From the NCBI RefSeq assembly GCF_029814825.1, contig NZ_CP122379.1:3202501-3266500 (forward strand): a stretch of DNA of 64,000 nt. The letters run 5' to 3'. Positions within the stretch are counted from its first letter, which is position 1. Every line of letters begins with the position of its first letter. This document shows positions 44,021-62,224 of the stretch, one piece after another. The DNA is from Aequorivita marisscotiae (GTDB taxonomy: Bacteria > Bacteroidota > Bacteroidia > Flavobacteriales > Flavobacteriaceae). Below the pieces are notes generated by a model, which was given only the letters and a program-made list of their open reading frames with translations, was not told the DNA's origin and searched no databases. The position numbers and the translations under genes are program-made.

Positions 44021-44154
44021 TACAATGATTATTAAACAGTTATACATCGAATAATATCTTGATAAAATCAAAACATTAAACACAAGAAATTGAGCCCAAA
44101 ATAGTATTGACCATAGGGCTAATTATTCCGATAATTATCGGAAACTGTTTAAAA

Positions 44155-45436: not shown

Positions 45437-45453
45437 ACAATACATTATATACT

Positions 45454-46035
45454 ATGAACAAACCAAAAGAATTTTGGATTAAGAATATGGTCTGTAACCG
45501 CTGCTTAAAAGTAATTAAACAAGAATTACAAGAACTTGAAGTTACAGTGCTTTCCTTGGAATTAGGAAGGTTGCTGGTAGAAGCACAAAAAAAAACGAAC
45601 AATGAAATTATCGATACCGTTACAAGTGTACTTCACGCCAATAATTTTGAAATTGTTCAGAATGAAGAAGAAATGCTCACAGAAAGAATCAAGATTATTC
45701 TAATAGAACAATTGCAAGAGCTACCGTTACATATTAAGGTAAAAACATCTGAACTATTGGCTTCAAGACTTCATAAAGATTACAAGACATTGAGCAGATT
45801 GTTTTCAGCAAATCAACAGACAACCATTGAAAAGTACTTTATCAAATTAAAAATAGAAAAAGTCAAAGAGCTCATTCAGCTTAAACAACATTCCTTTTCA
45901 GATATAGGATATTTATTGGACTACAGTAGTGTCAACCACCTGTCTAGACAGTTTAAGGAAGTGGTGGGAATGAGTATGACCGATTACAAAAACACAGGAA
46001 ATTGGAAACGGAATTTCTATGATGAAATTATATAG
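45454..46035 (+). CDS. AraC-family regulator with N-terminal metal-binding HMA-like domain, second copy
   Basis: 193 aa, same plan as the protein at 29895-30461: NMVCNRC (C14, C17), an LELGRLLVE strand, then the AraC double HTH (KDYKTLSRLFSANQQTTIEK, FSDIGYLLDYSSVNHLSRQF, VGMSMTDYKN). Stands between the HYC_CC_PP gene and the start of the long plus-strand gene run, so it is a good candidate regulator of either cluster. Confidence 0.8.
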   Translation: MNKPKEFWIKNMVCNRCLKVIKQELQELEVTVLSLELGRLLVEAQKKTNNEIIDTVTSVLHANNFEIVQNEEEMLTERIKIILIEQLQELPLHIKVKTSELLASRLHKDYKTLSRLFSANQQTTIEKYFIKLKIEKVKELIQLKQHSFSDIGYLLDYSSVNHLSRQFKEVVGMSMTDYKNTGNWKRNFYDEII

Positions 46036-46104: not shown

Positions 46105-46704
46105 ATGAAAAAACTACTTATCACATTAGTATTAATTCCCTTTATAGGAATTGCACAAACCTTTGAAAATTTAGACTACATCTCGCCTTTTAGCAATGGC
46201 GTCGCTGCCATTAAAAAAGGGAACGAATGGGGTTTTATTGACCCAGAAGGAAATTTAATCGTTGATTTTCGAAATGATTTGGTGGCAACCAAAACAGACA
46301 ATGCAAGCTACCCTATATTCAGTAACGGAAAATGCCTGATTGCAAACCAAAAAGATGGCGTGCTCTATTATGGCTATATCGATAAAACTGGAAAAACTGT
46401 CATCACTCCACAATTCCTCAATGCCAACAACTTTCAATATGGCAAAGCCTTGGTGTTAAAAGTTGAAAAAGAAACCATTGGCTATAATGACATTTTCAAA
46501 AAAGACGTGGTAAACTACCATTATTTTGAGCTTGTTATAGATGAGAATGGTAATACCATTGACCATTTAACGCAATTGGCCATTCACGTCTCGCCAAAAG
46601 ATAAGAATGATAAAAATCCACCTGCCATCACATCAAAATTGATTTCGGAAAATTTGGTGGCAGTTAAAGGTAATAATAAGAAGTGGCGTATAAAAAAAAT
46701 CTAA
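46105..46704 (+). CDS. Exported WG-repeat protein
   Basis: 199 aa. Signal peptide (residues 1-17), then WG/KWG-type beta repeats: GNEWGFIDPEGNLIVDF and YYGYIDKTGKTVITPQF. The repeat number is small for the family. Role unknown. Same strand as the AraC-type gene, 69 bp downstream. Confidence 0.75.
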   Translation: MKKLLITLVLIPFIGIAQTFENLDYISPFSNGVAAIKKGNEWGFIDPEGNLIVDFRNDLVATKTDNASYPIFSNGKCLIANQKDGVLYYGYIDKTGKTVITPQFLNANNFQYGKALVLKVEKETIGYNDIFKKDVVNYHYFELVIDENGNTIDHLTQLAIHVSPKDKNDKNPPAITSKLISENLVAVKGNNKKWRIKKI

Positions 46705-46826: not shown

Positions 46827-46869
46827 GTTTATAAAAATTAAAATAAATGTTTAACTCAAAAAATAAATT

Positions 46870-47349
46870 ATGAAAACACTACTAATTGTTTTATCGGCAG
46901 TTGGGCTTTTAAGCTTAAACAGTTGCAAACAAGAAACAAACACTCAGGCACTAATGGAAAACCCTGAAACTCGCACAGAAGTTTTTAATGCCATTTCCAA
47001 AAATCACGACTATATGACCGAATTTATGGAAAGTATGCACGACAACCAACACGCAATGCAAATGATGCAGGGCAACAAAAAAATGATGAGCTCAATGATG
47101 CAAGGAGAAGGAATGCAAATGATGATGAAAGACAGTACAATGATGCACTCAATGATGGACGGAATGATGAATGACGGCAAAATGATGGGCACTATGATGA
47201 AAATGATGCACGAAAAAGGGATGATGAGCGAAGACTGTATGGAATCCTGCTCAAAGATGATGGGCGAAAAAGAAATGGATATGCAGGGTATGGACAAGAT
47301 GGACGATATGGATAGTCCAACCAAAGGTGAGCATACCGAGCATCATTAA
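46870..47349 (+). CDS. Methionine-rich lipoprotein, likely copper-binding
   Basis: 159 aa. Lipoprotein signal (LLSLNSC) and a mature part with more than 30 methionines, many in MM pairs (MQMMQGNKKMMSSMMQGEG, MMDGMMNDGKMMGTMMKMM), plus His-rich end (EHTEHH). Met clusters bind Cu(I) or Ag(I) in oxidising compartments. First gene of a run of about 22 closely packed plus-strand genes. Confidence 0.78.
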   Translation: MKTLLIVLSAVGLLSLNSCKQETNTQALMENPETRTEVFNAISKNHDYMTEFMESMHDNQHAMQMMQGNKKMMSSMMQGEGMQMMMKDSTMMHSMMDGMMNDGKMMGTMMKMMHEKGMMSEDCMESCSKMMGEKEMDMQGMDKMDDMDSPTKGEHTEHH

Positions 47350-47373
47350 TTTTAACTTTTAAAATAAACAACA

Positions 47374-47643
47374 ATGAAAAATAATCACTGGATATGGATG
47401 GTCATCGGTTGTGGATTACCATTACTGTTTATAATTTTTGCACCATCATTAGGTATAGGAAGCAGTTCGTCTCTATTCATCTTCATCCTCTTTATGTTTG
47501 CTTGTCACTTATTTATGCCTCACGGTTCACATCGCCACGGTGGGCACAATCATTCACAGAATAGACAAAGAGAAAACGAACACGGTAAAGATGTTTCAAA
47601 AACAGAACCAAAAGATGAACACAAAGGGCATCATCACCATTAA
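47374..47643 (+). CDS. Small membrane protein with His-rich tail
   Basis: 89 aa. Two hydrophobic segments (WIWMVIGCGLPLLFIIFAP and LFIFILFMFACHLFMP) followed by a His-rich tail (SHRHGGHNHSQNRQ ... KGHHHH). Resembles DUF2933-type small proteins of copper loci. A metal-binding role is inferred from the histidines. Confidence 0.6.
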   Translation: MKNNHWIWMVIGCGLPLLFIIFAPSLGIGSSSSLFIFILFMFACHLFMPHGSHRHGGHNHSQNRQRENEHGKDVSKTEPKDEHKGHHHH

Positions 47644-47650
47644 ATACTAA

Positions 47651-47869
47651 ATGATGAAACAAAAATTTCAAATAAGCGGAATCAGCTGCGGTGGATGTGT
47701 ATCAAGAGTAAAAAAGACTTTAGAAGAACATCCCAATATAGAAAAAGCAGAGATCTTTTTGGCACCAAAAGGTGCTGCACTTATCACGATGAATGAAGCA
47801 CTTTCTGTTGCCGAATTACAAAAGCAACTTGATGGGCTCAATGGTTATACAATTACAGAATTAAATTAA
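47651..47869 (+). CDS. HMA-domain metallochaperone
   Basis: 72 aa, a single HMA fold with ISCGGC (C13, C16) and a YTITELN end. Cytoplasmic copper carrier by family. Related to the chaperone at 21951-22163, which also has the CGGC form. 8 bp after the previous gene. Confidence 0.85.
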   Translation: MMKQKFQISGISCGGCVSRVKKTLEEHPNIEKAEIFLAPKGAALITMNEALSVAELQKQLDGLNGYTITELN

Positions 47870-47891
47870 CAACAACTTAAAACCAAAAATT

Positions 47892-48110
47892 ATGCATTTT
47901 TACGAAGGACATTTTGGAGGTATGCACCTAATATGGTGGATTATATGGATTATTTTATTGGCTTGGATATTCTTTATCCCAGCAGATATCCCTTATCAAA
48001 AAACAAAGAAGGACAGCCCACTGGATATTCTTAAAAACCGCTTTGCAAAAGGCGAAATATCCAAGGAAGAATTTGAGGAATCAAAAAAGATATTAAAATC
48101 AGACAACTAA
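47892..48110 (+). CDS. Small membrane protein with SHOCT domain
   Basis: 72 aa. One membrane helix (LIWWIIWIILLAWIFFIP) and a C-terminal SHOCT motif (LDILKNRFAKGEISKEEFEE). Such proteins are common in metal and stress clusters; the SHOCT is thought to mediate oligomerisation. Confidence 0.82.
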   Translation: MHFYEGHFGGMHLIWWIIWIILLAWIFFIPADIPYQKTKKDSPLDILKNRFAKGEISKEEFEESKKILKSDN

Positions 48111-48127
48111 CTCAAAACTTTAAAATT

Positions 48128-48406
48128 ATGTATCGATTAAACGTAAAAAAACTCGGATTTGCTTTCGGTCTTACGGGGGCACTAATTTACTTAGGCTGTA
48201 TGATAGTTATGTCAACAGCAGGTCGAGAAGCCACTATCGATTTTTTCAACAGCCTATTGCACGGTTTAGATACCACAAGCATTATCAGGATGGATGTGCC
48301 ACTATGGGAAGCTGGTTTGGGAATAGTACAGATATTCATTTTAGGATGGCTAATAGGTGCCTGTATTGCGGCTTTTTATAATGCGCAAATAAAAGTCAAA
48401 AAATAA
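48128..48406 (+). CDS. DUF5676-like small membrane protein
   Basis: 92 aa with two hydrophobic segments (FAFGLTGALIYLGCMIVMS and GIVQIFILGWLIGACIAAFY) after a short LNVKKLG start, the pattern I associate with DUF5676. Function unknown. 18 bp from the previous gene. Confidence 0.6.
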   Translation: MYRLNVKKLGFAFGLTGALIYLGCMIVMSTAGREATIDFFNSLLHGLDTTSIIRMDVPLWEAGLGIVQIFILGWLIGACIAAFYNAQIKVKK

Positions 48407-48424
48407 GAGAGTAATATAAAATTT

Positions 48425-49135
48425 ATGCAATATGTCTGGTTCATATGGTCTCTTATAATTCTTGCGCTTTGGGCAATAATCTATTTGTCAAAAAAGGGGT
48501 ATAGAAAAGAAATGCTCAAAATGAGCCTTATCACTATGCCCTTTGGCCTAACAGAACCCTTGTTTGTTCCAGAATATTGGTTTCCACCTTCCCTCTTCCA
48601 TTTAGCGGAAAGAACAGGCTTTGATATTGAAAGCCTTATCTTCTCTTTTGCCATTGGCGGAATAGGGACGGTATTGTATAATCTGATATTCAAAAAAGGC
48701 TATATAGATATGCCTCATACCGAACGGAGCCACCAAAGACATAAGCTACATATTTATATACTTTTTGTTCCAGCCATTGTATTTGTCATATTTAGTCTTT
48801 TCACCACGCTTAACCACATCTATTGTGGCATCATTGCAATGTTTTTAGGTGGTTTGGCAACATTGTACTGTCGCCCAGATTTAAAAGGAAAGATATGGGT
48901 TGGAGGAATCTTGTTTACCATACTGTACTTCATTTATTTCGGAAGCATCCTTCCGTTCTATCCCCAATATGTGGAGTTGTACTGGAATCTGGACAACCTG
49001 ACCCATATTCTTGTTTTGGGAATCCCAATTGAAGAGTTACTGTTCGCTTTCACCTTTGGTATGTATTGGTCTGGATTATATGAACACTTGTATTGGAGAA
49101 AACTTATAAAATCGAAAGAAATGTCAACCAACTAA
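48425..49135 (+). CDS. Polytopic membrane protein with lycopene-cyclase-like domain
   Basis: 236 aa with about seven hydrophobic segments. LGIPIEELLFAFTFGMYWSG carries the P-x-E-E-x-x-F motif of CrtYc/CrtYd lycopene cyclase domains. No other carotenoid genes are nearby, so a different role in the membrane is possible. Embedded in the run with 18-bp and 12-bp gaps. Confidence 0.55.
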   Translation: MQYVWFIWSLIILALWAIIYLSKKGYRKEMLKMSLITMPFGLTEPLFVPEYWFPPSLFHLAERTGFDIESLIFSFAIGGIGTVLYNLIFKKGYIDMPHTERSHQRHKLHIYILFVPAIVFVIFSLFTTLNHIYCGIIAMFLGGLATLYCRPDLKGKIWVGGILFTILYFIYFGSILPFYPQYVELYWNLDNLTHILVLGIPIEELLFAFTFGMYWSGLYEHLYWRKLIKSKEMSTN

Positions 49136-49147
49136 AACATTCAAATT

Positions 49148-49609
49148 ATGAAAATATTATTGGCAGTAGACGGTTCAGGCTTTAGCAAAGCTGCCGTAGA
49201 AGAGCTCCATAAAATGACATTAACATCACATACTGAAATCTGCATCATAAATGTTTATGAATATCCAGCGACGCTTGGCCCTGAACTAATGGCTACAGGT
49301 GGAAACTTGAACAATTACTTTGAAGAATTCATAAGCGGTGCCAAAAAATTGGGCGACAAAATTGTTTCGGAAGCCAGCGATGTCCTAAAGAGTAAAAACG
49401 AAGCTCTTACTATAACTACTACCGTTGTGAGTGGATTACCCAAAAGTGCCATCCTGGAAAAAGCAGAGGATTGGAAGGCAGATTTAATCGTAGTTGGCTC
49501 TCAAGGTCAAGGTGCGCTTTCGCGCCTCCTTTTAGGTTCTGTTTCCCAATACTTAGCCACGCACGCCAAGTGCTCGGTATTGATTGCAAGAGATAAGAAT
49601 GAAGGGTAA
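49148..49609 (+). CDS. Universal stress protein (single domain)
   Basis: 153 aa UspA fold. Starts MKILLAVDGSGFSKAAVEEL and ends with the ATP-binding loop GSQGQGALSRLLLGSVSQYL (G-2x-G-9x-G-S/T). Usp proteins of this kind bind ATP and support survival in starvation or low oxygen. 12 bp after the previous gene. Confidence 0.92.
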   Translation: MKILLAVDGSGFSKAAVEELHKMTLTSHTEICIINVYEYPATLGPELMATGGNLNNYFEEFISGAKKLGDKIVSEASDVLKSKNEALTITTTVVSGLPKSAILEKAEDWKADLIVVGSQGQGALSRLLLGSVSQYLATHAKCSVLIARDKNEG

Positions 49610-49629
49610 ATTAAATTATAAACTAACAA

Positions 49630-50985
49630 ATGAAGGATAGCCACGCACATAACAACACAATGGATTCTACTTGTATGGTAGCAGATGAAATCTGTCTTCC
49701 GGATTCCAAATTCCCACGTATTGTTATCATTGGTGGAGGGTTTGCAGGTTTGGCATTGGTAGAAAAATTGAAACACAAAGAAGTACAAGTTGTATTGTTC
49801 GATAAAAACAACTTTCATCAATTTCAACCTTTGCTGTACCAAGTGGCTACAAGTGCGTTGGAACCTGATAGCATAGTATTTCCATTTAGGAAACAATTCA
49901 ATGGTTACAAAAATGTAGTATTTCGTTTGGTCGAAGTAGAAGAAATTCAGCCCTCATTAAACACATTAATAACCTCTAAAGGAAAAGTTCACTATGACTA
50001 TCTGGTAATTGCTACAGGTACAACCACCAATTTTTTTGGGATGGATAAAGTAGCAGAAAACAGCTTGGGAATGAAGGATATCCGAGATTCCCTGAACATT
50101 CGCCATATGATGTTGCAAAATTTAGAACAGGCTGCCATTACCTGTGATGATGATGAACGGGATGCCCCAACAAATTTTGTAATTGTAGGTGGTGGTCCTG
50201 CCGGTGTAGAGATGGCAGGAGCATTGGCTGAATTCTGTAAATACATTCTACCCAAAGATTATCCAGAGTATCCTGCTTCCATTATGAACATTTATTTAAT
50301 AGAAGCCATTGATGAGTTGTTAAGCACAATGTCTGATAAGGCATCATCGAAAACCCTCAAATATTTAGAGGATTTAAATGTAAAGGTATTATTAAATGAA
50401 GCTGTAAGCAATTATGATGGAAAGGAAGTCACTACCATAAGTGGTAAGACCATTTTGGCTAAAAACCTTATCTGGACGGCTGGCGTAAAAGGACAATTCC
50501 CAAATGGTATTGATGAAAAACACATAGTCAGGGGCAACCGGATTAAAACCGATGCTAATTTAAAAGTAGAAGGCTACGAAAACATTTTTGCCATAGGCGA
50601 TATAGCGGCTATAATTACTAAAGATACACCAAAAGGGCATCCACAGGTGGCGCAGGCAGCAATTCAACAAGGAAAATATCTGGGTAATTCTATATTAAAC
50701 CTCATAAATAATAAACCCACACAACCTTTCGAATATAAAGACAAAGGCTCCTTGGCCACTGTAGGAAAACGCAAGGCAGTTGCCGATTTGGGCAAATTTA
50801 AATTTGCAGGCTATTTCGCCTGGTTGCTGTGGTCCGTTGTTCACTTGATGTCCATAAGTGGATTTAGAAATAGATTGATGGTTGGTTTTAATTGGGCGGT
50901 TAGCTATTTCACTTATGAAAAGAGCAACCGCTTGATTATTAGAAATTTTAAGCCAAAATCATTAATCGATAATACAGAAGAATAA
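49630..50985 (+). CDS. ndh: Type II NADH dehydrogenase (NDH-2)
   Basis: 451 aa. FAD site IIGGGFAGLALVEKL near residue 35, NADH site FVIVGGGPAGVEMAGALAEF near 180, then IWTAGVKG and FAIGDIAAI, and a C-terminal membrane-binding part (WLLWSVVHLMSISG). Oxidises NADH with quinone without pumping protons and without iron-sulfur centres. Part of the long run. Confidence 0.9.
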   Translation: MKDSHAHNNTMDSTCMVADEICLPDSKFPRIVIIGGGFAGLALVEKLKHKEVQVVLFDKNNFHQFQPLLYQVATSALEPDSIVFPFRKQFNGYKNVVFRLVEVEEIQPSLNTLITSKGKVHYDYLVIATGTTTNFFGMDKVAENSLGMKDIRDSLNIRHMMLQNLEQAAITCDDDERDAPTNFVIVGGGPAGVEMAGALAEFCKYILPKDYPEYPASIMNIYLIEAIDELLSTMSDKASSKTLKYLEDLNVKVLLNEAVSNYDGKEVTTISGKTILAKNLIWTAGVKGQFPNGIDEKHIVRGNRIKTDANLKVEGYENIFAIGDIAAIITKDTPKGHPQVAQAAIQQGKYLGNSILNLINNKPTQPFEYKDKGSLATVGKRKAVADLGKFKFAGYFAWLLWSVVHLMSISGFRNRLMVGFNWAVSYFTYEKSNRLIIRNFKPKSLIDNTEE

Positions 50986-51005
50986 CTAATTAAAACAAAA
51001 TTTAT

Positions 51006-52019
51006 ATGAAAGAAATAGGAGTTATAGGATACGGAGTCATAGGAAAAAGAGTGGCAGATGCCATCAAATTACAAGATGATATGAAGCTTTCGGGCGTTTG
51101 CGATATAATCAGCGATTGGCGCATTCAAAATGCCGTAAGAAAGGAGTATGATATTTATGCAGCTACCGAAGAAGCAGCCAATGATATGGACTCAAAAGGA
51201 ATTTCAGTAAAAGGAAGCTTACAGGAACTTTTAAAGAAATCAGATCTTGTTGTGGACTGTACACCCAAAAAAATTGCCGCTCAGAATGTCGTTATCTACA
51301 AGGAGCAAAACATCAAATTTATTCTACACGGTGGCGAAAAACACGAAACCACAGGGCATTCCTTTAGTGCAGAAAATAATTACAAATCGGCTCTAAACTT
51401 GAATGCGACAAGAGTAGTTTCTTGTAATACTACGTCTATTTTAAGAACCTTGACCGCTTTAAAAAGAGCCGATTTATTGGATTATGCCAGAGGTACACTT
51501 TTAAGAAGAGCTACAGACCCTTGGGAAAGTCATTTAGGTGGTATTATGAATACAATGGTTCCCGAAAAAGATATCCCAAGCCATCAAGGTCCAGATGCTA
51601 AAAGTGTTGACCCAGAACTGGATGTCATCACCGCAGCGGTAAAAGTACCCGAAACATTGAGCCATATGCACTACTGGAATGTGAAATTGAAAAAGCAGGC
51701 GACAAAGGAAGAAGTGCTAAATGCTTTCAAAACTTCAAGTCGTATTAAATTAATTCAATATGACCAAGGCTTGGTTTCTAACAACACCATTAAAGAAATG
51801 TTTCTGGATATGGGAAGACCTTGGGGCGATATGTATGAAGTAGCCCTATGGGAAGATATGCTGAAAGTAGATGGCGACGAACTTTTCTATGCTTATATAG
51901 TCGATAATCAAGCTATTGTAATCCCGGAAACAATTGATGCTATTAGGGCATTAACTGGAATTGAAACAGATGGTACAAAATCCATAGCCAAAACAAATGA
52001 AAGTTTAGGAATCCATTAA
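51006..52019 (+). CDS. Type II (archaeal-type) glyceraldehyde-3-phosphate dehydrogenase
   Basis: 337 aa. N-terminal Rossmann motif [17 protein letters not shown], catalytic C140 in [13 protein letters not shown], then [16 protein letters not shown] and [14 protein letters not shown]. These are marks of the archaeal class II phosphorylating GAPDH, not of bacterial GapA (SCTTN). It converts glyceraldehyde 3-phosphate to 1,3-bisphosphoglycerate with NAD(P). A bacterial chromosome normally has GapA elsewhere, so this is likely an acquired second enzyme. Confidence 0.9.
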
Positions 52020-52030
52020 ATACTATCAAG

Positions 52031-53092
52031 ATGAAAACAGACAAGAATATAGTAGAACTTTTAGGAGAAAAAGCAGACTTCTATTTAGAACACGTTTGTG
52101 AAAAAATAACAAAAGATGAGTTACAAACACCAAGCACAAATAGTATAGACAAGGTGTTTGGCAATAGCAACAGAAATTCACAGGTACTTCGTAGCCTTTC
52201 CCAATTATACAATCACGGAAATCTGGCAGGAACTGGTTATTTAAGTATCCTTCCTGTTGACCAAGGTATTGAGCATAGCGCGGCCTTTTCATTCTATAAA
52301 AACCCAGATTATTTTGACCCAGAGAACATCATAAAACTTGCTATGGAAGCTGGTTGCAATGGTGTGGCATCCACGTTTGGTGTATTGGGATTGAACGCCC
52401 GAAAATATGCCCATAAAATCCCTTTTATCGTCAAGATTAACCATAACGAGCTACTTACCTATCCAAATAAATATGACCAAACATTATTTGGTAAGGTAAA
52501 AAATGCCTGGGATATGGGAGCAATTGCCGTAGGAGCTACGATTTATTTTGGTTCAGCAGAAAGCAACAGACAGCTAAAAGAAATAGCTGAAGCTTTTGAA
52601 GAAGCACACAATCTGGGAATGGCCACCATCTTATGGTGCTATACACGGAACGAGGCATTTAAAACCAACAGGGAAGATTATCACGCAGCTGCCGATGTAA
52701 CTGGGCAGGCAAACCATTTGGGTGTTACTATTCAAGCAGACATCATCAAACAAAAATTACCTACCAATAATTTTGGTTTCAAAGAGATAGGATTTGGAAA
52801 ATATGATGATGAAATGTATAAAACCCTTACCACAGACCACCCTATTGACCTTTGCAGGTTGCAAGTAGCCAATTGCTATATGGGTAAAATAGGGCTGATT
52901 AATTCAGGTGGTGGTTCCAAAGGCAAATCAGATTTGTCCGAAGCTGTAACAACTGCCGTTATCAATAAAAGGGCTGGTGGTTCTGGGCTGATAATGGGAA
53001 GAAAAGCATTTCAAAAACCCTTTAGCGAAGGCGTGAGAGTATTACAATCCGTTCAGGAAGTGTATCTGGATAATAAAATTAATATAGCATAA
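52031..53092 (+). CDS. fbaB: Class I fructose-bisphosphate aldolase, DhnA/archaeal type
   Basis: 353 aa. [48 protein letters not shown] follow the DhnA/FbaB Schiff-base TIM barrel, which needs no metal ion. It cleaves fructose 1,6-bisphosphate to triose phosphates. 11 bp after the GAPDH gene, giving consecutive glycolytic steps in one transcript. The zinc-dependent class II enzyme is the usual housekeeping form in Flavobacteria. Confidence 0.9.
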
Positions 53093-53100
53093 TCAACAGA

Positions 53101-54441
53101 ATGTTTGACACAGAGATAAAATCATTAAAATCACTTAACCACTACCTCCTTAAACTGGTAGAAAGCCGTCTATGGCTTAAAGTAATCATTGCCTTGTTTT
53201 TAGGTGTTGGATTTGGTCTGCTATTGAGCCCACAAAATGGATGGATTTCTAAAGAAACAGCAGATATCGCGGGGAATTGGCTGGCATTGCCTGGTGTCCT
53301 GTTTCTGAAATTGGTTCAAATGATTATGATTCCGTTGATTGTGGCTTCCATCATTACTGGAATAGCAAGTAATGATAAGGACAGTCTAAAAAAATTAGGT
53401 GGTGGGGTTTTGTTATATTTTCTAGGTACTACGATAGTTTCGGTAAGTTTGGGTGTCATACTATCTCAACTTTTTAGACCTGGTCGCTTTTTACATCAAC
53501 AGGCTCTAGCTGAACATAATGAAATTACAGATGTTCCAACGGAAAATCCAGAGCTTTCCTTCGGAATTGAAACGATTCCTGATGCCATCTCAAACTTACT
53601 TCCCGAAAACCCGTTGGCATCTATGGTAAGTGGTGAAATGTTAAGCATTGTAATTTTCACAATCATTATTGGTGTAGCTGTGCTATCACTTGAAAATGCC
53701 TTACTGCGCCCAGTGAAGCTGCTTCTAAGTGCCATTCAGGAAGTCTGTATGACAGTAGTAAAATGGTCAATGCTTCTAGTGCCTATTGCTGTTTTCGGAC
53801 TTATGGCGCAGCTTACCTCTAGTGTTGGTTTAAGTTCTCTTTCCGGTCTCACCTATTATGTTGGCGTCGTCCTGCTCGGTCTATTACTTTTGGTAATTTT
53901 CTATTTAGGGCTAATTGTGCTTCTTGGTAAAGCAAACCCTATGCATTTCCTAAAAAAAATAAGGGACGTTCAATTATTGGCCTTTTCAACCACAAGCTCT
54001 GCGGCCGTGATGCCACTTTCCCTTCAAACAGCCGAAGAAGAATTGAAGGTGGACAAGACCATTAGCAATTTTATTATTCCCATAGGTGCAACCGTCAATA
54101 TGGATGGCACTGCACTCTATCAAACCATAACTACGCTATTCATAGCCCAAGCCTATGGCTTGGAAATGAGTTTGCTCAATATTATTGTGGTCATCGTAAC
54201 CATCGTTGCTGCTTCAATCGGCACACCTGCCATTCCCGGAGGTGGTGTGGTGATACTCGCTTCTGTTTTGGGAAGTGTCGGTATTCCAGCCGAAGGCATC
54301 ATCATTATCATTGGTGTAGAAAGATTGTTGGGAATGTTCAGGACTGCTGTAAACGTAACGGGTGACCTTACAGCTTGTATGGTTTTTAATAGGTTGTATG
54401 GTATAAAAAATACTGAAATTCTTAAAAAAGAAGCTTTATAA
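53101..54441 (+). CDS. Dicarboxylate/amino acid:cation symporter (DAACS)
   Basis: 446 aa with about eight helices and the family's re-entrant loops: LLAFSTTSSAAVMPLSLQTA (serine-rich HP1), FIIPIGATVNMDGTALYQ, and IGTPAIPGGGVVILASVL (HP2). GltP/DctA homologue that takes up glutamate, aspartate or C4-dicarboxylates with H+ or Na+. Fits an anaplerotic supply for the metabolic genes around it. Gaps of 8 and 2 bp. Confidence 0.9.
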   Translation: MFDTEIKSLKSLNHYLLKLVESRLWLKVIIALFLGVGFGLLLSPQNGWISKETADIAGNWLALPGVLFLKLVQMIMIPLIVASIITGIASNDKDSLKKLGGGVLLYFLGTTIVSVSLGVILSQLFRPGRFLHQQALAEHNEITDVPTENPELSFGIETIPDAISNLLPENPLASMVSGEMLSIVIFTIIIGVAVLSLENALLRPVKLLLSAIQEVCMTVVKWSMLLVPIAVFGLMAQLTSSVGLSSLSGLTYYVGVVLLGLLLLVIFYLGLIVLLGKANPMHFLKKIRDVQLLAFSTTSSAAVMPLSLQTAEEELKVDKTISNFIIPIGATVNMDGTALYQTITTLFIAQAYGLEMSLLNIIVVIVTIVAASIGTPAIPGGGVVILASVLGSVGIPAEGIIIIIGVERLLGMFRTAVNVTGDLTACMVFNRLYGIKNTEILKKEAL

Positions 54442-54443
54442 CT

Positions 54444-55415
54444 ATGGATAGTACTATAAAACATATAGGTGTATTTACCTCTGGAGGTGATAGTCCAGGG
54501 ATGAATGCAGCCTTGTACGCCATTACAAAAACGGCTGAAGTAAATGGTATAAACGTAAGCGGCTTTCGAAAAGGATATGAAGGATTGATAGACGGTGACT
54601 TGGTTCAATTAAAATCACACGAATTACAAAAACTGACCCAAAAGGGTGGCACTATCCTTAAGACAGCCCGAAGCAAACGTTTTCTCGAACTGGAAGGTCG
54701 AAAAAAAGCCCTGCAAACCCTAAATGCAAACAAAATAGACGCTTTAATTGCCATAGGTGGTGATGGTACTTTTAAAGGTCTATTGGCTTTTTCAGAGATA
54801 TGCGATATCCCATTCGTAGGGATTCCCGGGACTATTGACAACGATATTTCGGGTACGGATTACACCCTTGGTTTCGATTCCGCTGTTAACACAGCCATTG
54901 AAAACATTGATAAAATAAGGGATACTGCCGAATCTCACAATCGGGTATTTATCGTGGAAGTAATGGGTAGAGATTCTGGCTATATCGGCATTCATTCAGG
55001 ATTGATGGTTGGCGCTGATGCCATACTCATCCCAGAGAGCGATACCGACTTTATTAACCTTTTAGATAAAGTGAAAAATTACGATAGCGAGGATGCTTTT
55101 CTAATCGTAGTTTCTGAAGGTGACGAAATTGGTGCCGAATTTGTTTCATCAAAAATAAAGGAAGTCAATCCCAATGTCGATTTACGCATAACAAAGCTTG
55201 GCCACATACAGCGAGGTGGAAATCCTTCTGCTTTAGATAGAATGTTGGGTATTAGGCTTGGGGTGGAAGCCGTAAAATCACTTTTACAAAGTAAAAAGAA
55301 TGTAATGGTCGGGGTTTTAAACAATCAATTGCACTTAACCCCTTTTAATGAAGTGGTCAAACAACATCAGGTCAATAAAGAATTGCACGAACTCTTAGAA
55401 CTATTTGGAACATAA
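54444..55415 (+). CDS. pfkA: ATP-dependent 6-phosphofructokinase
   Basis: 323 aa. TSGGDSPGMNAAL, IGGDGTFKGL (ATP site, near residue 105), PGTIDNDISGTDYTLGFDSA with the catalytic Asp near 130, VEVMGRDSGYI, and GHIQRGGNPSALDR. The GGDG form fits ATP rather than pyrophosphate as donor. Catalyses the committing step of glycolysis and feeds the aldolase encoded in the same run. 2 bp after the symporter. Confidence 0.92.
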   Translation: MDSTIKHIGVFTSGGDSPGMNAALYAITKTAEVNGINVSGFRKGYEGLIDGDLVQLKSHELQKLTQKGGTILKTARSKRFLELEGRKKALQTLNANKIDALIAIGGDGTFKGLLAFSEICDIPFVGIPGTIDNDISGTDYTLGFDSAVNTAIENIDKIRDTAESHNRVFIVEVMGRDSGYIGIHSGLMVGADAILIPESDTDFINLLDKVKNYDSEDAFLIVVSEGDEIGAEFVSSKIKEVNPNVDLRITKLGHIQRGGNPSALDRMLGIRLGVEAVKSLLQSKKNVMVGVLNNQLHLTPFNEVVKQHQVNKELHELLELFGT

Positions 55416-55418
55416 ATT

Positions 55419-56414
55419 ATGAAAACAACAATATACAGCACACATAAATTCGATAAGCCTTCCATTGAAAACGCTAATAAAGGAAAACATCAATTGAATT
55501 TTCTGGAATTTCGACTAACAAAGGAAACCGCCTTATTGGCAGAAGGTTCAAAGGCCATAGCACTTTTCTCAAGTGACGATGCCTCTTCAGAAGTTTTGGA
55601 TATTTTACACAAACTGGGCATAAAATTTATCGCATTACGTTCGGCAGGTTTCAATCACGTCGATTTAAAAAAAGCATCAGAACTTGGAATTAAAGTGGCT
55701 CGTGTCCCAGCCTATTCCCCTTATGCCATTGCAGAACATACTATGGCGCTGATACTTGCATTAAACCGAAGACTGATTAAAGCCCACAATAGAGTGCGCG
55801 AACAAAACTTTTCATTAAACGGTCTCACCGGTTTTGACCTTAATGGGAAAACCGTTGGCGTGATTGGAACAGGAAAAATCGGGTCTGTACTCGTAAAAAT
55901 ACTTCACGGATTCGGCTGCAATATTCTTGCCCAGGATATAGAAGAAAGTAAAGACCTAATTGATAAATATGGCGTAATCTATACAGATTGTGCGACGCTC
56001 TGTAAGCACGCAGATATAATAAGCCTGCACGTGCCATTAAAAGCTTCAACAAAACATTTAATAAATAAAGAGCATATAGCACTAATGAAATCTGGAGTGA
56101 TGCTCATCAATACAAGTCGTGGTGGGTTGGTGGACACCAAAGCGGTTATACAAGGTCTTAAGACGAGAAAAATAGGGTATTTAGGACTGGATGTGTATGA
56201 GGAAGAGGAAGGATTGTTTTTTGAAGACCATTCCGAAGATATTTTACAAGACGATGTCATTGCACGTTTAATGACTTTTAATAATGTTTTAATTACCAGT
56301 CATCAAGCTTTTTTAACCAAAACCGCATTGACCAATATTGCAGAAACAACCATATATAATCTGGATTGTTTTGAAAAACAAAAACCTTCTGGAAATGAAA
56401 TTAGCATTAATTAA
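55419..56414 (+). CDS. ldhA: D-2-hydroxyacid dehydrogenase, D-lactate dehydrogenase type
   Basis: 331 aa. GKTVGVIGTGKIGSVLVKIL near residue 145, RSAGFNHVDL substrate loop, HVPLKASTKHLINKEHI, INTSRGGLVDTKAV and the catalytic His in LITSHQAFLT. The SRG and ITSHQAF forms are of the fermentative LdhA branch. Would reduce pyruvate to D-lactate and regenerate NAD+ for the GAPDH in the run. 3 bp after pfkA. Confidence 0.88.
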   Translation: MKTTIYSTHKFDKPSIENANKGKHQLNFLEFRLTKETALLAEGSKAIALFSSDDASSEVLDILHKLGIKFIALRSAGFNHVDLKKASELGIKVARVPAYSPYAIAEHTMALILALNRRLIKAHNRVREQNFSLNGLTGFDLNGKTVGVIGTGKIGSVLVKILHGFGCNILAQDIEESKDLIDKYGVIYTDCATLCKHADIISLHVPLKASTKHLINKEHIALMKSGVMLINTSRGGLVDTKAVIQGLKTRKIGYLGLDVYEEEEGLFFEDHSEDILQDDVIARLMTFNNVLITSHQAFLTKTALTNIAETTIYNLDCFEKQKPSGNEISIN

Positions 56415-56432: not shown

Positions 56433-57263
56433 ATGAAAAACATACTCGTACCAACAGACTTTTCAAAAAATTGCAATAAAGCAGAAGAACTCGGAATTGA
56501 AATGGCAAAGCTTTACAATTCCGAAATCCATTTTTTCCATTTGATGAAAACCCCCGTAGAATGGGTAAAGTTGGATAAACAAAAAGAAAAACAGTACCCA
56601 GAAACAGTAAAGCAAATAGGCATCGCAAAAGCCTACCTGAGAGAACTGGAGAAAAAAGCAGAACGACAAGGCCTTGAGTGCAGGACTTTTCTTGAATTTG
56701 ATGGTGGTCAGGCAAATATCCTTAAACATTCGGGTCATTTTCATCACGATTTTATAGTTACGGGAAGTAGTGGCACCCGAGGCGGTATACGTGAGTTAAT
56801 GGGAAGCAACGTAGAAAAAATTGTTAGGAAAGCTGATGTACCAGTTGTTGTAGTCAAGGATGAAGAAGTATCCTTTCCTTTTAAGGATATCGTTTTTGTT
56901 TCAGATTTTCTTCAAGATGTAAGCGATGCATTTAAGCAGGTTATTTCGATTGCTGAAAAATGCGGCGCACATATCCATTTATTGAGGGTCAATACTCAGA
57001 CCGATTTTAACAGTATAGAGCAAGGGTTGGATCCCATCAAGGAGTTCCTGAAAAAATTCCCCGATTTGGATAACTTCTCAATGAATGTATATAACGAACC
57101 AGACGTAGAAACAGGGATAAACAATTTTTTACGATATAAAAATGCCGATTTAATCGCAATGTGTACTCACGGACGTACAGGCTTTTTAAGCTTATTCTCT
57201 AAAAGCATCGCAGAGGGTGTAACCAATCACTCCGAATTACCAGTAATGACTATTAAAATGTAA
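56433..57263 (+). CDS. Tandem-domain universal stress protein
   Basis: 276 aa, two UspA-like halves. First: KNILVPTDFSKNCNKAEELG ... VTGSSGTRGGIRELMGSNVE; second: FVSDFLQDVSDAFKQVISIA ... MCTHGRTGFLSLFSKSIAEG. Both keep a G-2x-G-like loop. A stress and low-energy survival role is usual for the family. 18 bp after ldhA and 2 bp before the next gene. Confidence 0.88.
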   Translation: MKNILVPTDFSKNCNKAEELGIEMAKLYNSEIHFFHLMKTPVEWVKLDKQKEKQYPETVKQIGIAKAYLRELEKKAERQGLECRTFLEFDGGQANILKHSGHFHHDFIVTGSSGTRGGIRELMGSNVEKIVRKADVPVVVVKDEEVSFPFKDIVFVSDFLQDVSDAFKQVISIAEKCGAHIHLLRVNTQTDFNSIEQGLDPIKEFLKKFPDLDNFSMNVYNEPDVETGINNFLRYKNADLIAMCTHGRTGFLSLFSKSIAEGVTNHSELPVMTIKM

Positions 57264-57265
57264 CA

Positions 57266-58108
57266 ATGAATAAATCAGTCTTAATAAAAAAATACTCTGG
57301 TGAGTACGAAGCCTTTGATGTAAACAAACTCATCAACTCCCTGCGGCGTTCACGGGCAGATGAGGATATTATTCAAGATATAGCCCGGAAAGTACAAGAG
57401 CAGATTGAAGAAGGAATGACAACCAAAAAAATCTATCAATTGGCATTCAAGATGCTAAAGGCCAAATCCAGGGTAAGTGCCTCAAAGTACAAGCTCAAAA
57501 AAGCTTTAATGGAACTAGGTCCAACCGGTTTTCCATTTGAAAAATTAGTAGGTAAACTATTGGCACACGAAGGTTTTGATACAGAAGTTGATGTTATTGT
57601 CCAAGGTAATTGTGTTCAACACGAAATAGATGTGATAGCGCAAAAAGACAATAATCATTATATGATTGAATGCAAATACCATAGCGATCAAGGACGAGTT
57701 TGCAACGTGAAGATTCCATTATACATCAATTCAAGATTTTTAGATGTAGAAAAAAATTGGGAACGCCAAAAAGGTCACGATACTAAACTTCACAAAGGAG
57801 GCGTCTATACAAATACACGATTTACAAGTGATGCGGTACAATATGGTAAATGCGTTGGGCTATTATTGACAAGTTGGGATTACCCAATGGATAACGGGTT
57901 AAAAGACAGAATAGATAAAGCTGGTCTGCACCCATTGACCGCATTGACAACGCTGACCAAAGCTGAGAAATCAAAGCTATTGGACAAGGGAATTGTGCTC
58001 TGTAAAGAGCTTCACGAAAATCCTGCGTTATTAGAGCAGATAGGGGTTGACAAAAAAAGGCACAAAAATATTTTGGCAGATTCAAAAGAGCTGTGCCAAA
58101 GCACTTAA
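57266..58108 (+). CDS. ATP-cone protein fused to Mrr-type restriction endonuclease fold
   Basis: 280 aa. Residues ~5-90 are an ATP-cone (VLIKKYSGEYEAFDVNKLIN, VSASKYKLKKALMELGP), the adenine-nucleotide sensor of ribonucleotide reductases. Residues ~95-200 are a PD-(D/E)XK nuclease: FEKLVGKLLAHEGF, HEIDVIAQKDN and YMIECKYH (Asp, E-x-K). The pairing suggests a nuclease switched by ATP or dATP level. No methylase is nearby, so ordinary restriction is unlikely. Confidence 0.85.
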   Translation: MNKSVLIKKYSGEYEAFDVNKLINSLRRSRADEDIIQDIARKVQEQIEEGMTTKKIYQLAFKMLKAKSRVSASKYKLKKALMELGPTGFPFEKLVGKLLAHEGFDTEVDVIVQGNCVQHEIDVIAQKDNNHYMIECKYHSDQGRVCNVKIPLYINSRFLDVEKNWERQKGHDTKLHKGGVYTNTRFTSDAVQYGKCVGLLLTSWDYPMDNGLKDRIDKAGLHPLTALTTLTKAEKSKLLDKGIVLCKELHENPALLEQIGVDKKRHKNILADSKELCQST

Positions 58109-58149: not shown

Positions 58150-58404
58150 ATGAAAACAGATGAAACCCAAAAACAGAACACAATAGATTTGGAGCCATTT
58201 TACCAAGCATTGGAAGATGATCCAAAACTACTTGAAGAAGCCCTTGAAATAGTATTGGGGATGGTAAACTTTGAACCTGAATCCGTTAAGAAATTGGCGC
58301 TTTTTATCAAAGAAGATTCTCGTAATCTATATAAAGAAATAGTGGAATTGAGCAAATCAAAACAAGATAAAGGAAATACACCTTCTTGCTGTGGAGGACA
58401 CTAA
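58150..58404 (+). CDS. Small acidic protein with CCGGH tail
   Basis: 84 aa, mostly helical and acidic, ending TPSCCGGH, a likely metal-binding tail. I do not recognise the family. It stands between the ATP-cone nuclease (41-bp gap, the largest in the run) and the beta-CASP RNase. Confidence 0.6.
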   Translation: MKTDETQKQNTIDLEPFYQALEDDPKLLEEALEIVLGMVNFEPESVKKLALFIKEDSRNLYKEIVELSKSKQDKGNTPSCCGGH

Positions 58405-58419: not shown

Positions 58420-59796
58420 ATGACAAACAACAAAATAAACATCCATTTTTTAGGAGCGACAGGCACAGTAACCGGTTCAAAATATCTGGTAGATACAGGA
58501 GATAGAAAGATACTCATAGACTGCGGTCTTTTTCAGGGATTGAAGGAATTACGCCTTAAAAACTGGGAGTATCCACCCGTTAATGTTGCAGATATTGACG
58601 CTGTTTTGCTTACCCACGGCCATATGGACCATACAGGATATTTGCCGAGATTGGTAAAGCAAGGTTTCAAAGGGCCCATTTACGGCACCAATCCCACCTT
58701 GGACATCGCAAAAATCATATTGAATGATAGTGCCAAAATACAAGAACAGGAAGCCGAACGTGCCAATAAAGAGGGCTATTCCAAACACAGTCCTGCTGAA
58801 CCACTTTACGATTTAAATGATGTAGAAAAAACAATCCCTTACTTCAAAGGAGTACCACCCTCGCAATGGTTACCCATTCTCAAAGATGTGAAAGCAAGGT
58901 TTCAATACAACGGACACATCCTTGGTGCCACATACATTGAGTTAGATTTACGCGGAAAACGTTTCGTGTTTTCTGGCGATATAGGCAGAACAAACGATTT
59001 ATTACTGTTTCCTCCATTAAAGCCAAAAAAGGCAGATGTATTATTTATTGAATCCACCTACGGAGGAAGATTTCATCGTGATGAAGTAGAAGCACTTCCA
59101 CAAATTGAAAAATTGGTCAATGAAACCATTAATAGAGGTGGCAGCTTATTTGTCCCAAGTTTTTCGGTAGAACGCGCCCAATTGATGATGCTTATTTTTT
59201 GGAGGTTACTCAAGGAGAACAAAATCCCCAAAGTACAAATGATTATGGATAGTCCAATGGGTGCCAACGTATTGGAACTGTTTCATAGAACTCGGGATTG
59301 GCACAGATTGGAAGACAACGAATGTGACGAAATGTGCTCACACTTTACAGTTGTTAGCAGTTATCGTGAAACAATGGAATTAAGAACAGATTACAAACCA
59401 AAAATCGTGATTGCAGGAAGCGGAATGCTCACAGGGGGAAGAATGCTAAACTATCTTGAAACCCAAGCACAAAACCCCAACAACACCTTGCTTTTTGTGG
59501 GTTATCAAGCTGAAGGTACGCGAGGCAGAAAATTATTGGAAGGCGATAAGGAACTTAAAGTGTATGGAAAATGGGTGCCCTTTGATATGGAAGTTGTAGA
59601 AATTGAAGGGCTCTCAGCACACGCTGACCATAGAGAACTTATAGATTGGATGGGCAAAATAAAAAATACGCCAGAGCGGATTTTCATTGTACACGGTGAA
59701 AAAGAAAGTGCAGAAGCATTGCAAAAAGGCATCAAGGAAACTTATGGGTGGGATGCAGAAATTCCGCAATTATACACCATCGAAGAAATAGAATAA
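58420..59796 (+). CDS. Beta-CASP metallo-beta-lactamase RNase (CPSF/mRNA 3'-end processing type)
   Basis: 458 aa. Metallo-beta-lactamase motifs LTHGHMDHTGYLPRLV near residue 65, GHILGATYIEL, FSGDIGR, and beta-CASP motifs: Asp/Glu in FIESTYGGR, AGSGMLTGGRML, and GLSAHADHRELIDWM near residue 397. Dizinc RNA endo- or exonuclease by family. Together with the neighbouring phosphorylase it would supply or recycle nucleoside monophosphates from RNA. Confidence 0.9.
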   Translation: MTNNKINIHFLGATGTVTGSKYLVDTGDRKILIDCGLFQGLKELRLKNWEYPPVNVADIDAVLLTHGHMDHTGYLPRLVKQGFKGPIYGTNPTLDIAKIILNDSAKIQEQEAERANKEGYSKHSPAEPLYDLNDVEKTIPYFKGVPPSQWLPILKDVKARFQYNGHILGATYIELDLRGKRFVFSGDIGRTNDLLLFPPLKPKKADVLFIESTYGGRFHRDEVEALPQIEKLVNETINRGGSLFVPSFSVERAQLMMLIFWRLLKENKIPKVQMIMDSPMGANVLELFHRTRDWHRLEDNECDEMCSHFTVVSSYRETMELRTDYKPKIVIAGSGMLTGGRMLNYLETQAQNPNNTLLFVGYQAEGTRGRKLLEGDKELKVYGKWVPFDMEVVEIEGLSAHADHRELIDWMGKIKNTPERIFIVHGEKESAEALQKGIKETYGWDAEIPQLYTIEEIE

Positions 59797-59817: not shown

Positions 59818-61320
59818 ATGGACACACACTCAAACATATTAAAATACAAACACCTCGGCATCTATACCCAAAACGAGAATGTAGTGTATATGCGCGAAGA
59901 TTGCCACGTTTGTATTTCAGAAGGGTTTGAGGCACTTACCCGAATAAGAATATCCAACGCAAGTACATCAATCGTGGCAAGTCTTAATGTCCTGAATTCT
60001 GATATTCTGTTGCCTAATGAAATCGGACTATCAGATGCTGCCGCGAAAAAACTCAATGTGTCCCAAAACGATACATTATATGTTTCCCATTTAGAGCCTA
60101 TTGAATCCTTAAGCCACGTCAGGGCAAAAATCTATAACAAAAAACTGGATTATAAGGCCTATAACAACATCATAACCGATATCGTGGAAGGCGATTATTC
60201 CAACATCCACCTTTCGGCATTTATTACTGCCTGTGCTGGCGACCGAATGGATATTGATGAAATATCCGACCTAACGAAAGCAATGATTGCTTCCGGAAAG
60301 CAACTGAACTGGAACAAGGATATCGTGGTCGACAAACATTGTATTGGCGGATTGCCTGGCAATAGGACAACACCATTGGTAGTTGCCATTGTTGCCGCGT
60401 ATGGGCTTACTATGCCAAAAACATCCTCACGGGCAATCACTTCGCCAGCAGGCACAGCAGATACAATGGAAGTACTGACCAATGTTACGCTCTCTTCCGA
60501 GGAAATAAAGACCGTAGTAGAAAAAGAAGGCGGATGTTTTGTTTGGGGCGGTACAGCGCAGTTAAGTCCTGCCGATGATGTGCTCATTAAAATTGAAAAA
60601 GCCTTGGATATTGATAGCGAAGGTCAGCTCATCGCTTCAGTACTCTCTAAAAAGGCAGCAGCTGGTTCTACTCACGTGGTCATTGATATTCCCGTGGGAG
60701 AAACCGCCAAGGTTCGCAGTACCGAAATGGCAGAAAAACTAAAAAATCATATGGAAACCGTTGGAACTGCTGTTGGGTTGAATGTAAAAGTTGTAGTTAC
60801 GGATGGCACGCAGCCTGTTGGAAGGGGTATCGGTCCAACTTTAGAAGCCATAGATATATTAAAAGTTTTGAAAAATGAGGAAGATGCACCTAAAGACTTA
60901 ACAGAAAGAGCATTGCTTTTAGCTACTGAACTATTAGAACTTTCTGGAAAAGTAGAAAAAGGAAAGGGACAGGAAACCGCACGTGAAATTCTCAAATCTG
61001 GAAAAGCATATGAAAAATTCGTAGCCATTTGTAAGGCGCAAGGTCAATTTTCAAAACCAGTTTTAGCACCTTATAAAATTGAAATTAAAGCTGAAAAGTC
61101 AGGCGTTTTGCAACGAATTGATAACCGTAAAATTGCAAAACTGGCCAAGCTTTCTGGAGCACCACAATCTAAATCGGCAGGGATTCTTTTGAATGTCCAT
61201 TTAAATGAAAAAATCGAAATAGACCAATTGTTATATACCATATATGCTGAATCCAAAGGTGAACTTAATTATGCCTTGGAATATGAAAACAACCATAACG
61301 ACATCATAACTATAAATTAA
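59818..61320 (+). CDS. AMP phosphorylase / thymidine phosphorylase family enzyme, archaeal type
   Basis: 500 aa, longer than E. coli DeoA (~440) because of an N-terminal ~85-residue beta domain as in archaeal AMP phosphorylase. Core: VDKHCIGGLPGNRTTPLVVA, KTSSRAITSPAGTADTMEVL, GGCFVWGGTAQLSPADDVLI. AMP phosphorylases turn AMP + phosphate into adenine + ribose 1,5-bisphosphate; bacterial relatives are often only called putative thymidine phosphorylase. Substrate is therefore open; the adjacent PRPP synthetase gene favours nucleotide-ribose salvage. Confidence 0.82.
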   Translation: MDTHSNILKYKHLGIYTQNENVVYMREDCHVCISEGFEALTRIRISNASTSIVASLNVLNSDILLPNEIGLSDAAAKKLNVSQNDTLYVSHLEPIESLSHVRAKIYNKKLDYKAYNNIITDIVEGDYSNIHLSAFITACAGDRMDIDEISDLTKAMIASGKQLNWNKDIVVDKHCIGGLPGNRTTPLVVAIVAAYGLTMPKTSSRAITSPAGTADTMEVLTNVTLSSEEIKTVVEKEGGCFVWGGTAQLSPADDVLIKIEKALDIDSEGQLIASVLSKKAAAGSTHVVIDIPVGETAKVRSTEMAEKLKNHMETVGTAVGLNVKVVVTDGTQPVGRGIGPTLEAIDILKVLKNEEDAPKDLTERALLLATELLELSGKVEKGKGQETAREILKSGKAYEKFVAICKAQGQFSKPVLAPYKIEIKAEKSGVLQRIDNRKIAKLAKLSGAPQSKSAGILLNVHLNEKIEIDQLLYTIYAESKGELNYALEYENNHNDIITIN

Positions 61321-61330: not shown

Positions 61331-62224
61331 ATGAAAACAATATTATTCAGTCTTCCCGGAAATGAAGAACTCACAGAACTAATGGCTACAAAAATGGATG
61401 CTGAAGTGGGTCAAGCCACATTAAGGAAATTCCCTGACGGGGAATCATACACGCGCATATTGTCTGATGTTAAAGATAAATGTGTGGTACTGGTATGCAC
61501 CTTGCACGAACCGGACGAAAAACTGTTGTCACTATATTTTTTAAGCCACACAGCCAAATCATTAGGAGCTATGTGTACCTGTTTGGTAGCACCCTATTTG
61601 GCGTATATGCGGCAGGACAAAGTATTTAATGAAGGAGAAGGAGTGACTTCCGGTTTCTTCGGAAAATTGATTTCTGGTTTCGCCGATAGCATTACCACGG
61701 TTGACCCTCACTTGCACAGAATTAGTTCGTTGGGAGAAGTATATCAAATTCCAAATAAAGTGATTCACGCTGCCGATGCCATTTCAGAATGGATAAAAGA
61801 AAACATTGAAAACCCGGTACTTATTGGGCCTGATTCGGAAAGTGAACAATGGGTTTCTGAAGTCGCCAAAAATGCTGGAGCACCATTTATAGTATTACAA
61901 AAGGTACGTCACGGTGACCGTGATGTAGAAGTCTCTGTTCCCGATGTGGATAAGTACAAGAATGCCACACCTATTTTAGTAGATGACATTATTTCCACAG
62001 CCCGAACAATGATTGAAACCGTACAACATCTTAAAAAAGCAGGAATGAAACCACCTATTTGTGTAGGCATTCACGCCGTTTTTTCAGGAAACGCCTATCA
62101 AGATTTATTGGATTCCGGAGTAGAAAAAATAGTGACTTGTAATACCATCCCACACTCTTCAAATGGAATAGATTTAAGTGATATTATGGCAAAAGAGGTA
62201 AAAAAATTAATGCACCATATATGA
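61331..62224 (+). CDS. prs: Ribose-phosphate pyrophosphokinase (PRPP synthetase) homologue
   Basis: 297 aa. YLAYMRQDKVFNEGEGVTSG, TTVDPHLHR, PDSESEQWV and the PRPP loop ILVDDIISTARTM follow the Prs fold. Shorter and more divergent than housekeeping Prs (~315 aa), with VDPHLHRI in place of the usual DLHxxQIQGFF, and closer to short archaeal-like forms. Makes PRPP and AMP from ribose 5-phosphate and ATP; reverse use is possible. Ten bp after the phosphorylase and overlapping the next gene by 4 bp. Confidence 0.85.
   Translation: MKTILFSLPGNEELTELMATKMDAEVGQATLRKFPDGESYTRILSDVKDKCVVLVCTLHEPDEKLLSLYFLSHTAKSLGAMCTCLVAPYLAYMRQDKVFNEGEGVTSGFFGKLISGFADSITTVDPHLHRISSLGEVYQIPNKVIHAADAISEWIKENIENPVLIGPDSESEQWVSEVAKNAGAPFIVLQKVRHGDRDVEVSVPDVDKYKNATPILVDDIISTARTMIETVQHLKKAGMKPPICVGIHAVFSGNAYQDLLDSGVEKIVTCNTIPHSSNGIDLSDIMAKEVKKLMHHI

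Follow-up and report, generated by a model that had tools for sequence, protein, structure and literature searches.

We describe here a run of genes on a 64,000-nucleotide stretch of the Aequorivita marisscotiae genome (contig NZ_CP122379.1, positions 3,202,501 to 3,266,500, referred to throughout as the window), in which a type II, archaeal-type glyceraldehyde-3-phosphate dehydrogenase (GAPDH-II), other glycolytic enzymes, a phosphoribosyl pyrophosphate (PRPP) synthase (Prs) and a type II NADH dehydrogenase (NDH-2) are enclosed between putative copper-binding proteins and a predicted CopB-type copper ATPase. The genes are grouped more than chance would give, and comparisons among genomes indicate that the run is horizontally mobile. 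The best reading, which we hold with about even confidence, is that it may be a mobile copper operon carrying replacements for targets of copper. A broader proposal, that several phyla share a mobile metal tolerance combining efflux with copper-proof isozymes for GAPDH, Prs, aldolase, and NADH oxidation, controlled by a regulator in the Flavobacteriaceae, is possible and is held somewhat more tentatively.

Even sampling of the genomes that encode GAPDH-II, with 11 drawn of 120 in the family and 14 of 296 in the phylum, gave 24 different genomes, the Aequorivita genome being present in both samples. A match to the copper-ATPase profile lies within 25 kb of GAPDH-II in 23 of the 24, compared with one of 47 places encoding a type I GAPDH; at 20 kb the counts are 20 of 24 and one of 47 (Fisher p ~1e-12, for genomes that are not independent of each other), using matches above the cut-off and counting each of four split matches once. 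In the single miss (genome G185) the ATPases are on other contigs and CusA is 14 kb away. The ATPase is downstream of GAPDH-II and on the same strand in all 13 same-family genomes, and its membrane motif is CPH in 11/11 of the Bacteroidota loci in which the ATPase was reached, among the 80 loci described below. CusA is within 50 kb in at least 17 of the 24 genomes, an undercount as the window's own CusA is missing from the rows used (62 of 66, after removal of three that fell below the cut-off and of a split match on another contig in genome G054). We therefore consider the copper linkage, as read from these genomes, to be firm in Bacteroidota. The sequence-only reading of this DNA had proposed that the run replaces metal-sensitive steps during copper or mercury stress; this is partly supported, in that the copies are extra and mobile and in Bacteroidota are linked to copper-pump genes much more often than chance would give, but mercury is only occasional, with MerA encoded by 10 of the 24 genomes and lying within 50 kb of GAPDH-II in seven, and we reject it as a common theme. 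Nor, as far as can be read from these genomes, is the GAPDH-II cluster widespread in Bacteroidota without metal genes.

The copies in the run are additional ones. The genome is a single, complete-looking contig of 3.45 Mb, and outside the run it encodes three type I GAPDHs, one class II aldolase match, a further phosphofructokinase (PFK) adjoining a type I GAPDH at contig position 2505680, and a further Prs at 1260519; chromosomal gapA and class II fba, which the sequence-only reading had suggested looking for, are thus both found apart from the run, and the possibility that the run holds the only glycolytic copies is ruled out. Type I GAPDH is likewise present in all 24 examined genomes with GAPDH-II. 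Two steps doubled by the module, GapA and Prs, are published copper targets. Staphylococcus aureus GapA is bound and inhibited by Cu(I) (PMC6350627), copper inhibits GapA of Streptococcus pyogenes while sparing its other GAPDH, GapN (PMC7733945), and it also acts as an inhibitor of Prs, both in vivo and in vitro (PMC10249872).

The two kinds of GAPDH differ at the active site. The best-scoring type I enzyme has the sequence SCTTNC in 24 of 24 genomes, and we infer that this cysteine pair chelates copper. At the place of the second cysteine, four residues on, cellular type II enzymes have serine in 112 of 113 cases, glycine in one, and cysteine in none (123 rows minus nine viral and one partial, including the window and genomes present twice). 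A six-frame search recovered the motif in 18 of 20 plasmid-borne loci, missing Ciceribacter selenitireducens and an outlying Bradyrhizobium protein (34%), and here the residue is serine, alanine, or glycine. The nine viral-contig proteins are distant (41–42% identity) with a different motif, and were set aside. The earlier caveat that GAPDH-II still uses a thiol is thereby sharpened: the catalytic cysteine is retained, although the second is not.

These observations suggest a plausible model. Cytosolic Cu(I) would bind the MVCxRC motif of the regulator and switch on the run, and the pump and binding proteins would reduce copper. Copper would meanwhile poison Fe-S respiration and the housekeeping forms of GapA, Prs, and the zinc-dependent aldolase, but glycolytic ATP and PRPP synthesis would be sustained by GAPDH-II, which lacks the SCTTNC pair, by the class I aldolase, which needs no metal, and by the PFK and Prs of the run, and NADH would be recycled by NDH-2 and the D-2-hydroxyacid dehydrogenase.

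GAPDH-II is full-length, scores above the curated cut-off for the type II phosphorylating enzyme, and has a catalytic C140 that is invariant in 26 aligned rows, with 2czc and 1cf2 as the nearest PDB entries. The aldolase is also above its cut-off, and in an alignment with 1ojx its K240 is matched by a lysine that we take to be the Schiff-base residue. NDH-2 contains Pyr_redox_2 and NDH2_C, with no Fe-S domain among its Pfam matches. The ATPase has a His-rich N-terminus, matches the copper ATPase profile, and contains CPH, presumably the mark of the CopB-type (P1B-3) class, to which it is predicted to belong. An AMP phosphorylase equivalog assignment for the DeoA-family enzyme was rejected (TIGR03327, 491.7 bits, under the cut-off of 535), and the broader NF003338 applies.

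All of the genes named in the sequence-only reading are present on the forward strand and in the order it gave, as judged by profile and Pfam matches, although in some respects that account needs adjustment. The run is real but was drawn too narrowly, since the DeoA-like enzyme, Prs, and the CopB-type ATPase extend it, and of its two universal stress proteins (Usp) the second lies beyond the segment delimited. The D-LDH-type dehydrogenase is a D-2-hydroxyacid dehydrogenase, but no LDH or VanH model is passed (best score 240 bits against a cut-off of 540) and we therefore file it simply under the broader name. A gap of 18 bp separates the ATPase from the small gene that precedes it, and an MFS-like gene follows; further downstream in the island are AckA and Pta and an apparent second Cus set (the MFS and Cus labels assigned by eye).

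Table. Features of the gene run and its island, in window coordinates; the last column gives occurrence among the 80 Bacteroidota loci.
Feature	Position	Strand	Basis	Loci of 80
Mercuric reductase MerA, same island	25962..27668	-	TIGR02053, 507 bits	
CusA-type RND copper efflux pump, upstream of run	40280..44083	-	TIGR00914, 779 bits	
AraC-type regulator, N-terminal copper-chaperone-like (HMA) fold, MVCNRC motif	45454..46035	+		61
WG-repeat protein, between regulator and main run	46105..46704	+	Pfam WG_beta_rep	35
Met-rich putative copper-binding lipoprotein, first gene of run	46870..47349	+	sequence; no Pfam match	45
Membrane protein, His-rich tail	47374..47643	+	sequence	65
HMA-domain copper-chaperone-like protein	47651..47869	+	PF00403	66
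SHOCT-domain protein	47892..48110	+	PF09851	71
DUF5676 membrane protein	48128..48406	+	PF18926	71
Lycopene-cyclase-domain membrane protein	48425..49135	+	PF18916	63
Usp	49148..49609	+	PF00582	70 (Usp)
NDH-2	49630..50985	+	Pyr_redox_2 + NDH2_C, above cut-off	73
GAPDH-II, catalytic C140 in SCNTT, Ser at +4	51006..52019	+	NF003251, 449 bits (cut-off 185)	
Class I (Schiff-base) fructose-bisphosphate aldolase	52031..53092	+	NF006707, 641 bits (cut-off 327)	79
DAACS dicarboxylate/amino-acid symporter	53101..54441	+	PF00375	
ATP-PFK, second copy in genome	54444..55415	+	NF002872, 370 bits	53
D-2-hydroxyacid dehydrogenase, VanH/LdhA (D-LDH)-like	55419..56414	+	best NF000492, 240 bits, under cut-off	
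Double Usp	56433..57263	+	PF00582, two stretches	
ATP-cone/Mrr-like protein	57266..58108	+	PF03477, PF04471	
Small conserved protein	58150..58404	+		52
MBL beta-CASP RNase-like protein	58420..59796	+	NCBIfam aCPSF1/Cas14 relatives, under cut-off	49
Thymidine/AMP phosphorylase-like enzyme (DeoA family)	59818..61320	+	NF003338, 691 bits	at least 24
Prs (PRK07199 subfamily), second copy	61331..62224	+	NF005537, 397 bits	at least 11
Conserved protein	62221..62865	+	no Pfam match	21
Small conserved protein immediately 5' of ATPase	62873..63166	+		20
Predicted CopB-type copper ATPase, His-rich N-terminus, CPH motif	63185..65287 (past window end at 64000)	+	TIGR01511, 612 bits	at least 11

The arrangement was compared in the best 80 of 184 loci from named Bacteroidota relatives, with 10-kb flanks and some contigs shorter, such that the distal genes (DeoA, Prs, and the ATPase) are undercounted. 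Median gaps are 40 bp or less from the His-rich gene at 47374 through the ATPase, with 164 bp preceding the Met-rich gene. We also note that the SHOCT, DUF5676, and lycopene-cyclase-domain membrane proteins (47892–49135) recur near GAPDH-II in both Bacteroidota and Pseudomonadota.

Mobility, as the sequence-only reading had supposed, is indicated by identical GAPDH-II proteins across genera and by near-identical DNA in a genome of the class Saprospiria. The closest named relatives of the window genome's GAPDH-II are from Flavobacteriaceae; in the GAPDH-II tree some proteins are identical between genera, and a row from a Cyclobacterium metagenome assembly lies beside a Mesonia row, with the deep joins flagged as unsure by the program. 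Membranihabitans maritimus (Saprospiria) shares 98.4% DNA identity over window positions 44001–49153 (~5.1 kb) and 78–89% beyond, a mosaic that points to recent transfer. The left edge of the island is likely at 13385–16279, where there is a tRNA-Ser at 13385 and an integrase-like N-terminal fragment at 13708; an exact 18-bp repeat of the tRNA-Ser end was not found up to 102.5 kb. The integrase-like fragment is truncated by an IS21-like pair (these labels, too, by eye).

The regulator has an HMA-like fold with an MxCxxC motif joined to an AraC helix-turn-helix, although the Pfam HMA model itself is not matched, and we regard it as a putative metal sensor; at one locus (L056) arginine replaces the first cysteine of the motif. 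Its relatives at a distance of over 12 kb from GAPDH-II number 43, and 29 of them have a P1B ATPase or CusA no further than 10 kb away, compared with one of 47 type I GAPDHs (counting split ATPase matches once and leaving aside a partial match, G265:C4). The spacing, common strand, and lack of terminator excess are operon-like features and co-transcription is predicted; promoter and terminator scans gave counts at chance level. No operator common to the run and cusA was found, and FNR, CRP, CueR-like, and CsoR-like patterns had no match in the run. An inverted repeat upstream of the Met-rich gene (CATTCCC..GGGAATG, 46788–46825) is present whole or as its six-base core in 21 of 46 sequences, but was rejected as proof of an operator because it is more terminator- or attenuator-like.

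On plasmids of other phyla the copper linkage is suggestive. A tblastn search placed GAPDH-II on 37 plasmid records, of which 20 were examined with flanks of 12–20 kb where the record allowed. Setting aside the Bradyrhizobium outlier, which has no nearby copper gene, 17 of 19 have a P1B ATPase or annotated copper protein within ~20 kb, a count that has no within-plasmid control; in the two exceptions the neighbourhood offers no more than an RND pump of unassigned metal (Pontibacter) or an HMA protein (Methylophaga). Clear copper genes (a CPC or CPH ATPase, CueR, multicopper oxidase, CopB or CopC) are found in nine of the 17, and in Phenylobacterium the ATPase is cut by the end of the stretch and its motif was not read. 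The partners of GAPDH-II on plasmids include Prs, DeoA, MBL, phosphoketolase, AckA, and GlgP, with phosphoglycerate kinase and enolase in single cases, and in Paracoccus and Ciceribacter selenitireducens a CPH-type ATPase is followed directly by Prs. We also note that P1B ATPases with CPD in place of the CPC or CPH metal-binding membrane motif lie beside the module in eight plasmids, and these are possibly an undescribed subclass. Plasmids of the Roseobacter group (Roseovarius, Sulfitobacter) link GAPDH-II to the arginine deiminase pathway and petA.

A search based on Prs covered the best 60 of 103 plasmid records, with three examined. The Criblamydia sequanensis plasmid encodes CusA, an ATPase, phosphoketolase, GlgP, ATP-cone, MBL, DeoA, Prs, and AckA proteins head to tail. 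Its Prs is 72% identical to that of the window, its ATPase is nearest to calcium pumps although under their cut-offs, and GAPDH-II is not annotated in the stretch examined. On Sinorhizobium pSinB the DeoA-Prs pair lies close to a multicopper oxidase, and a Sphingobium amiense plasmid has MBL-DeoA-Prs beside F0F1 ATP synthase genes, with no annotated copper gene in 8 kb.

Several observations weigh against target replacement under copper stress. The copper-ATPase profile also admits CPD-type ATPases, and since these pass or resemble it a profile match alone is no proof of copper; the ATPases of the 11 other-family genomes were scored by profile alone, seven of the 17 plasmids have only CPD-motif ATPases of unassigned metal, and Methylophaga has no copper pump nearby. 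Eleven of the 24 genomes, all from the same family, have the regulator within 12 kb of GAPDH-II; of the 11 genomes from other families none does. General thiol avoidance in the module was considered and rejected, as the class I aldolase and module Prs are more cysteine-rich than the housekeeping enzymes (five cysteines against two in the class II aldolase, and six against four in Prs). Two further type I GAPDHs of the same genome already lack the second cysteine, and as all the cellular type II enzymes examined lack it, its absence in the module is no special adaptation. Finally, some plasmid relatives carry genes of low-oxygen or energy metabolism, including arginine deiminase, pyruvate:ferredoxin oxidoreductase (PFOR), nirK, and F0F1.

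This last point bears on the fermentation alternative already raised in the sequence-only reading, which retains real support from alphaproteobacterial relatives with arginine deiminase, PFOR, and F0F1. The module could serve low oxygen or energy starvation, providing ATP without respiration through glycolysis and D-lactate, and travel with copper genes either because metal-rich sediments favour both or because a lack of oxygen makes Cu(I) more harmful; we think this less likely than the copper reading, but it is the foremost of the alternatives. Relatives add phosphoketolase (Rhodococcus, Corynebacterium, Pseudarthrobacter, and, with acetate kinase, Criblamydia), PFOR and Crp/Fnr (Phenylobacterium), glycogen phosphorylase, and the arginine deiminase set of the Roseovarius and Sulfitobacter plasmids, and the island itself has AckA-Pta. 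Usp proteins are also a feature of the hypoxia-induced lxa locus of Burkholderia cenocepacia (PMC9733578). However, the cbb3 oxidase gene ccoN, a low-oxygen marker, occurs in 21 of the 24 genomes but in none of them lies within 25 kb of GAPDH-II, the exact FNR motif (TTGATNNNNATCAA) is absent from the window, fold and motif mark the run's regulator and ATPase as copper-type, and NDH-2 feeds a respiratory chain. With copper toxicity being higher without oxygen, as PMC9040851 indicates, the copper and low-oxygen readings may be one thing.

It is improbable that the glycolytic and stress genes are passengers that have accumulated, with no function in common, at a hot spot next to copper pumps under selection. 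The cargo is variable, with APC/NhaA-type transporters, hydrolases, glycosyltransferases, and SDR enzymes (labels by eye), but the order is fixed and the gaps small across many genera, and the same ATP-cone, MBL, DeoA, and Prs partners occur in another phylum, in Criblamydia. More improbable still is that the enzymes simply supply ATP and NADH to the pumps and MerA, for while the run has an ATP-driven ATPase and the island has MerA, this leaves the choice of different GAPDH and aldolase kinds unexplained, and MerA is nearby in few genomes.

The module differs from the systems that it most resembles. It is like the copper/silver resistance islands (cus, cop, mco) in its CusA, multicopper oxidase, CopA/CopB ATPases, HMA proteins, and mobility, but no such island known to us combines these, within one run, with a second set of glycolytic enzymes, Prs, and DeoA. 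In the arsJ-gapdh arsenate pair a GAPDH gene is likewise found within a metal(loid) resistance island, where the type I GAPDH forms an arseno-ester that ArsJ exports; here the GAPDH is type II, and its neighbours are copper genes and further enzymes of glycolysis. Target-replacement antibiotic resistance (extra dihydrofolate reductase or isoleucyl-tRNA synthetase) also employs a mobile second enzyme in place of a poisoned one, although here the poison would be a metal and the replacement would extend to several steps of a pathway at once. The low-oxygen-induced B. cenocepacia lxa locus is similarly a large, Usp-rich stress locus (PMC9733578, PMC3759415), but the parts of those papers and of PMC6127331 available to us name neither type II GAPDH nor copper genes for it. 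The escape of S. pyogenes GapN from copper inhibition also involves a different GAPDH kind, although GapN is non-phosphorylating and, in the accessible part of PMC7733945, is not presented within a mobile copper run. A search of the open-access literature found no paper on this gene combination, which is weak evidence of novelty. To our knowledge a mobile swap of poisoned metabolic nodes alongside copper efflux has no described counterpart.

Standard accounts attribute copper tolerance to efflux, oxidation, and chelation, and if the copper reading is true then target replacement adds another route. The gene lists of such islands would then constitute a readable inventory of the targets that copper really poisons in the cell, and the question of copper's cytosolic targets would become testable, with GapA and Prs, found biochemically, matching two of the doubled steps.

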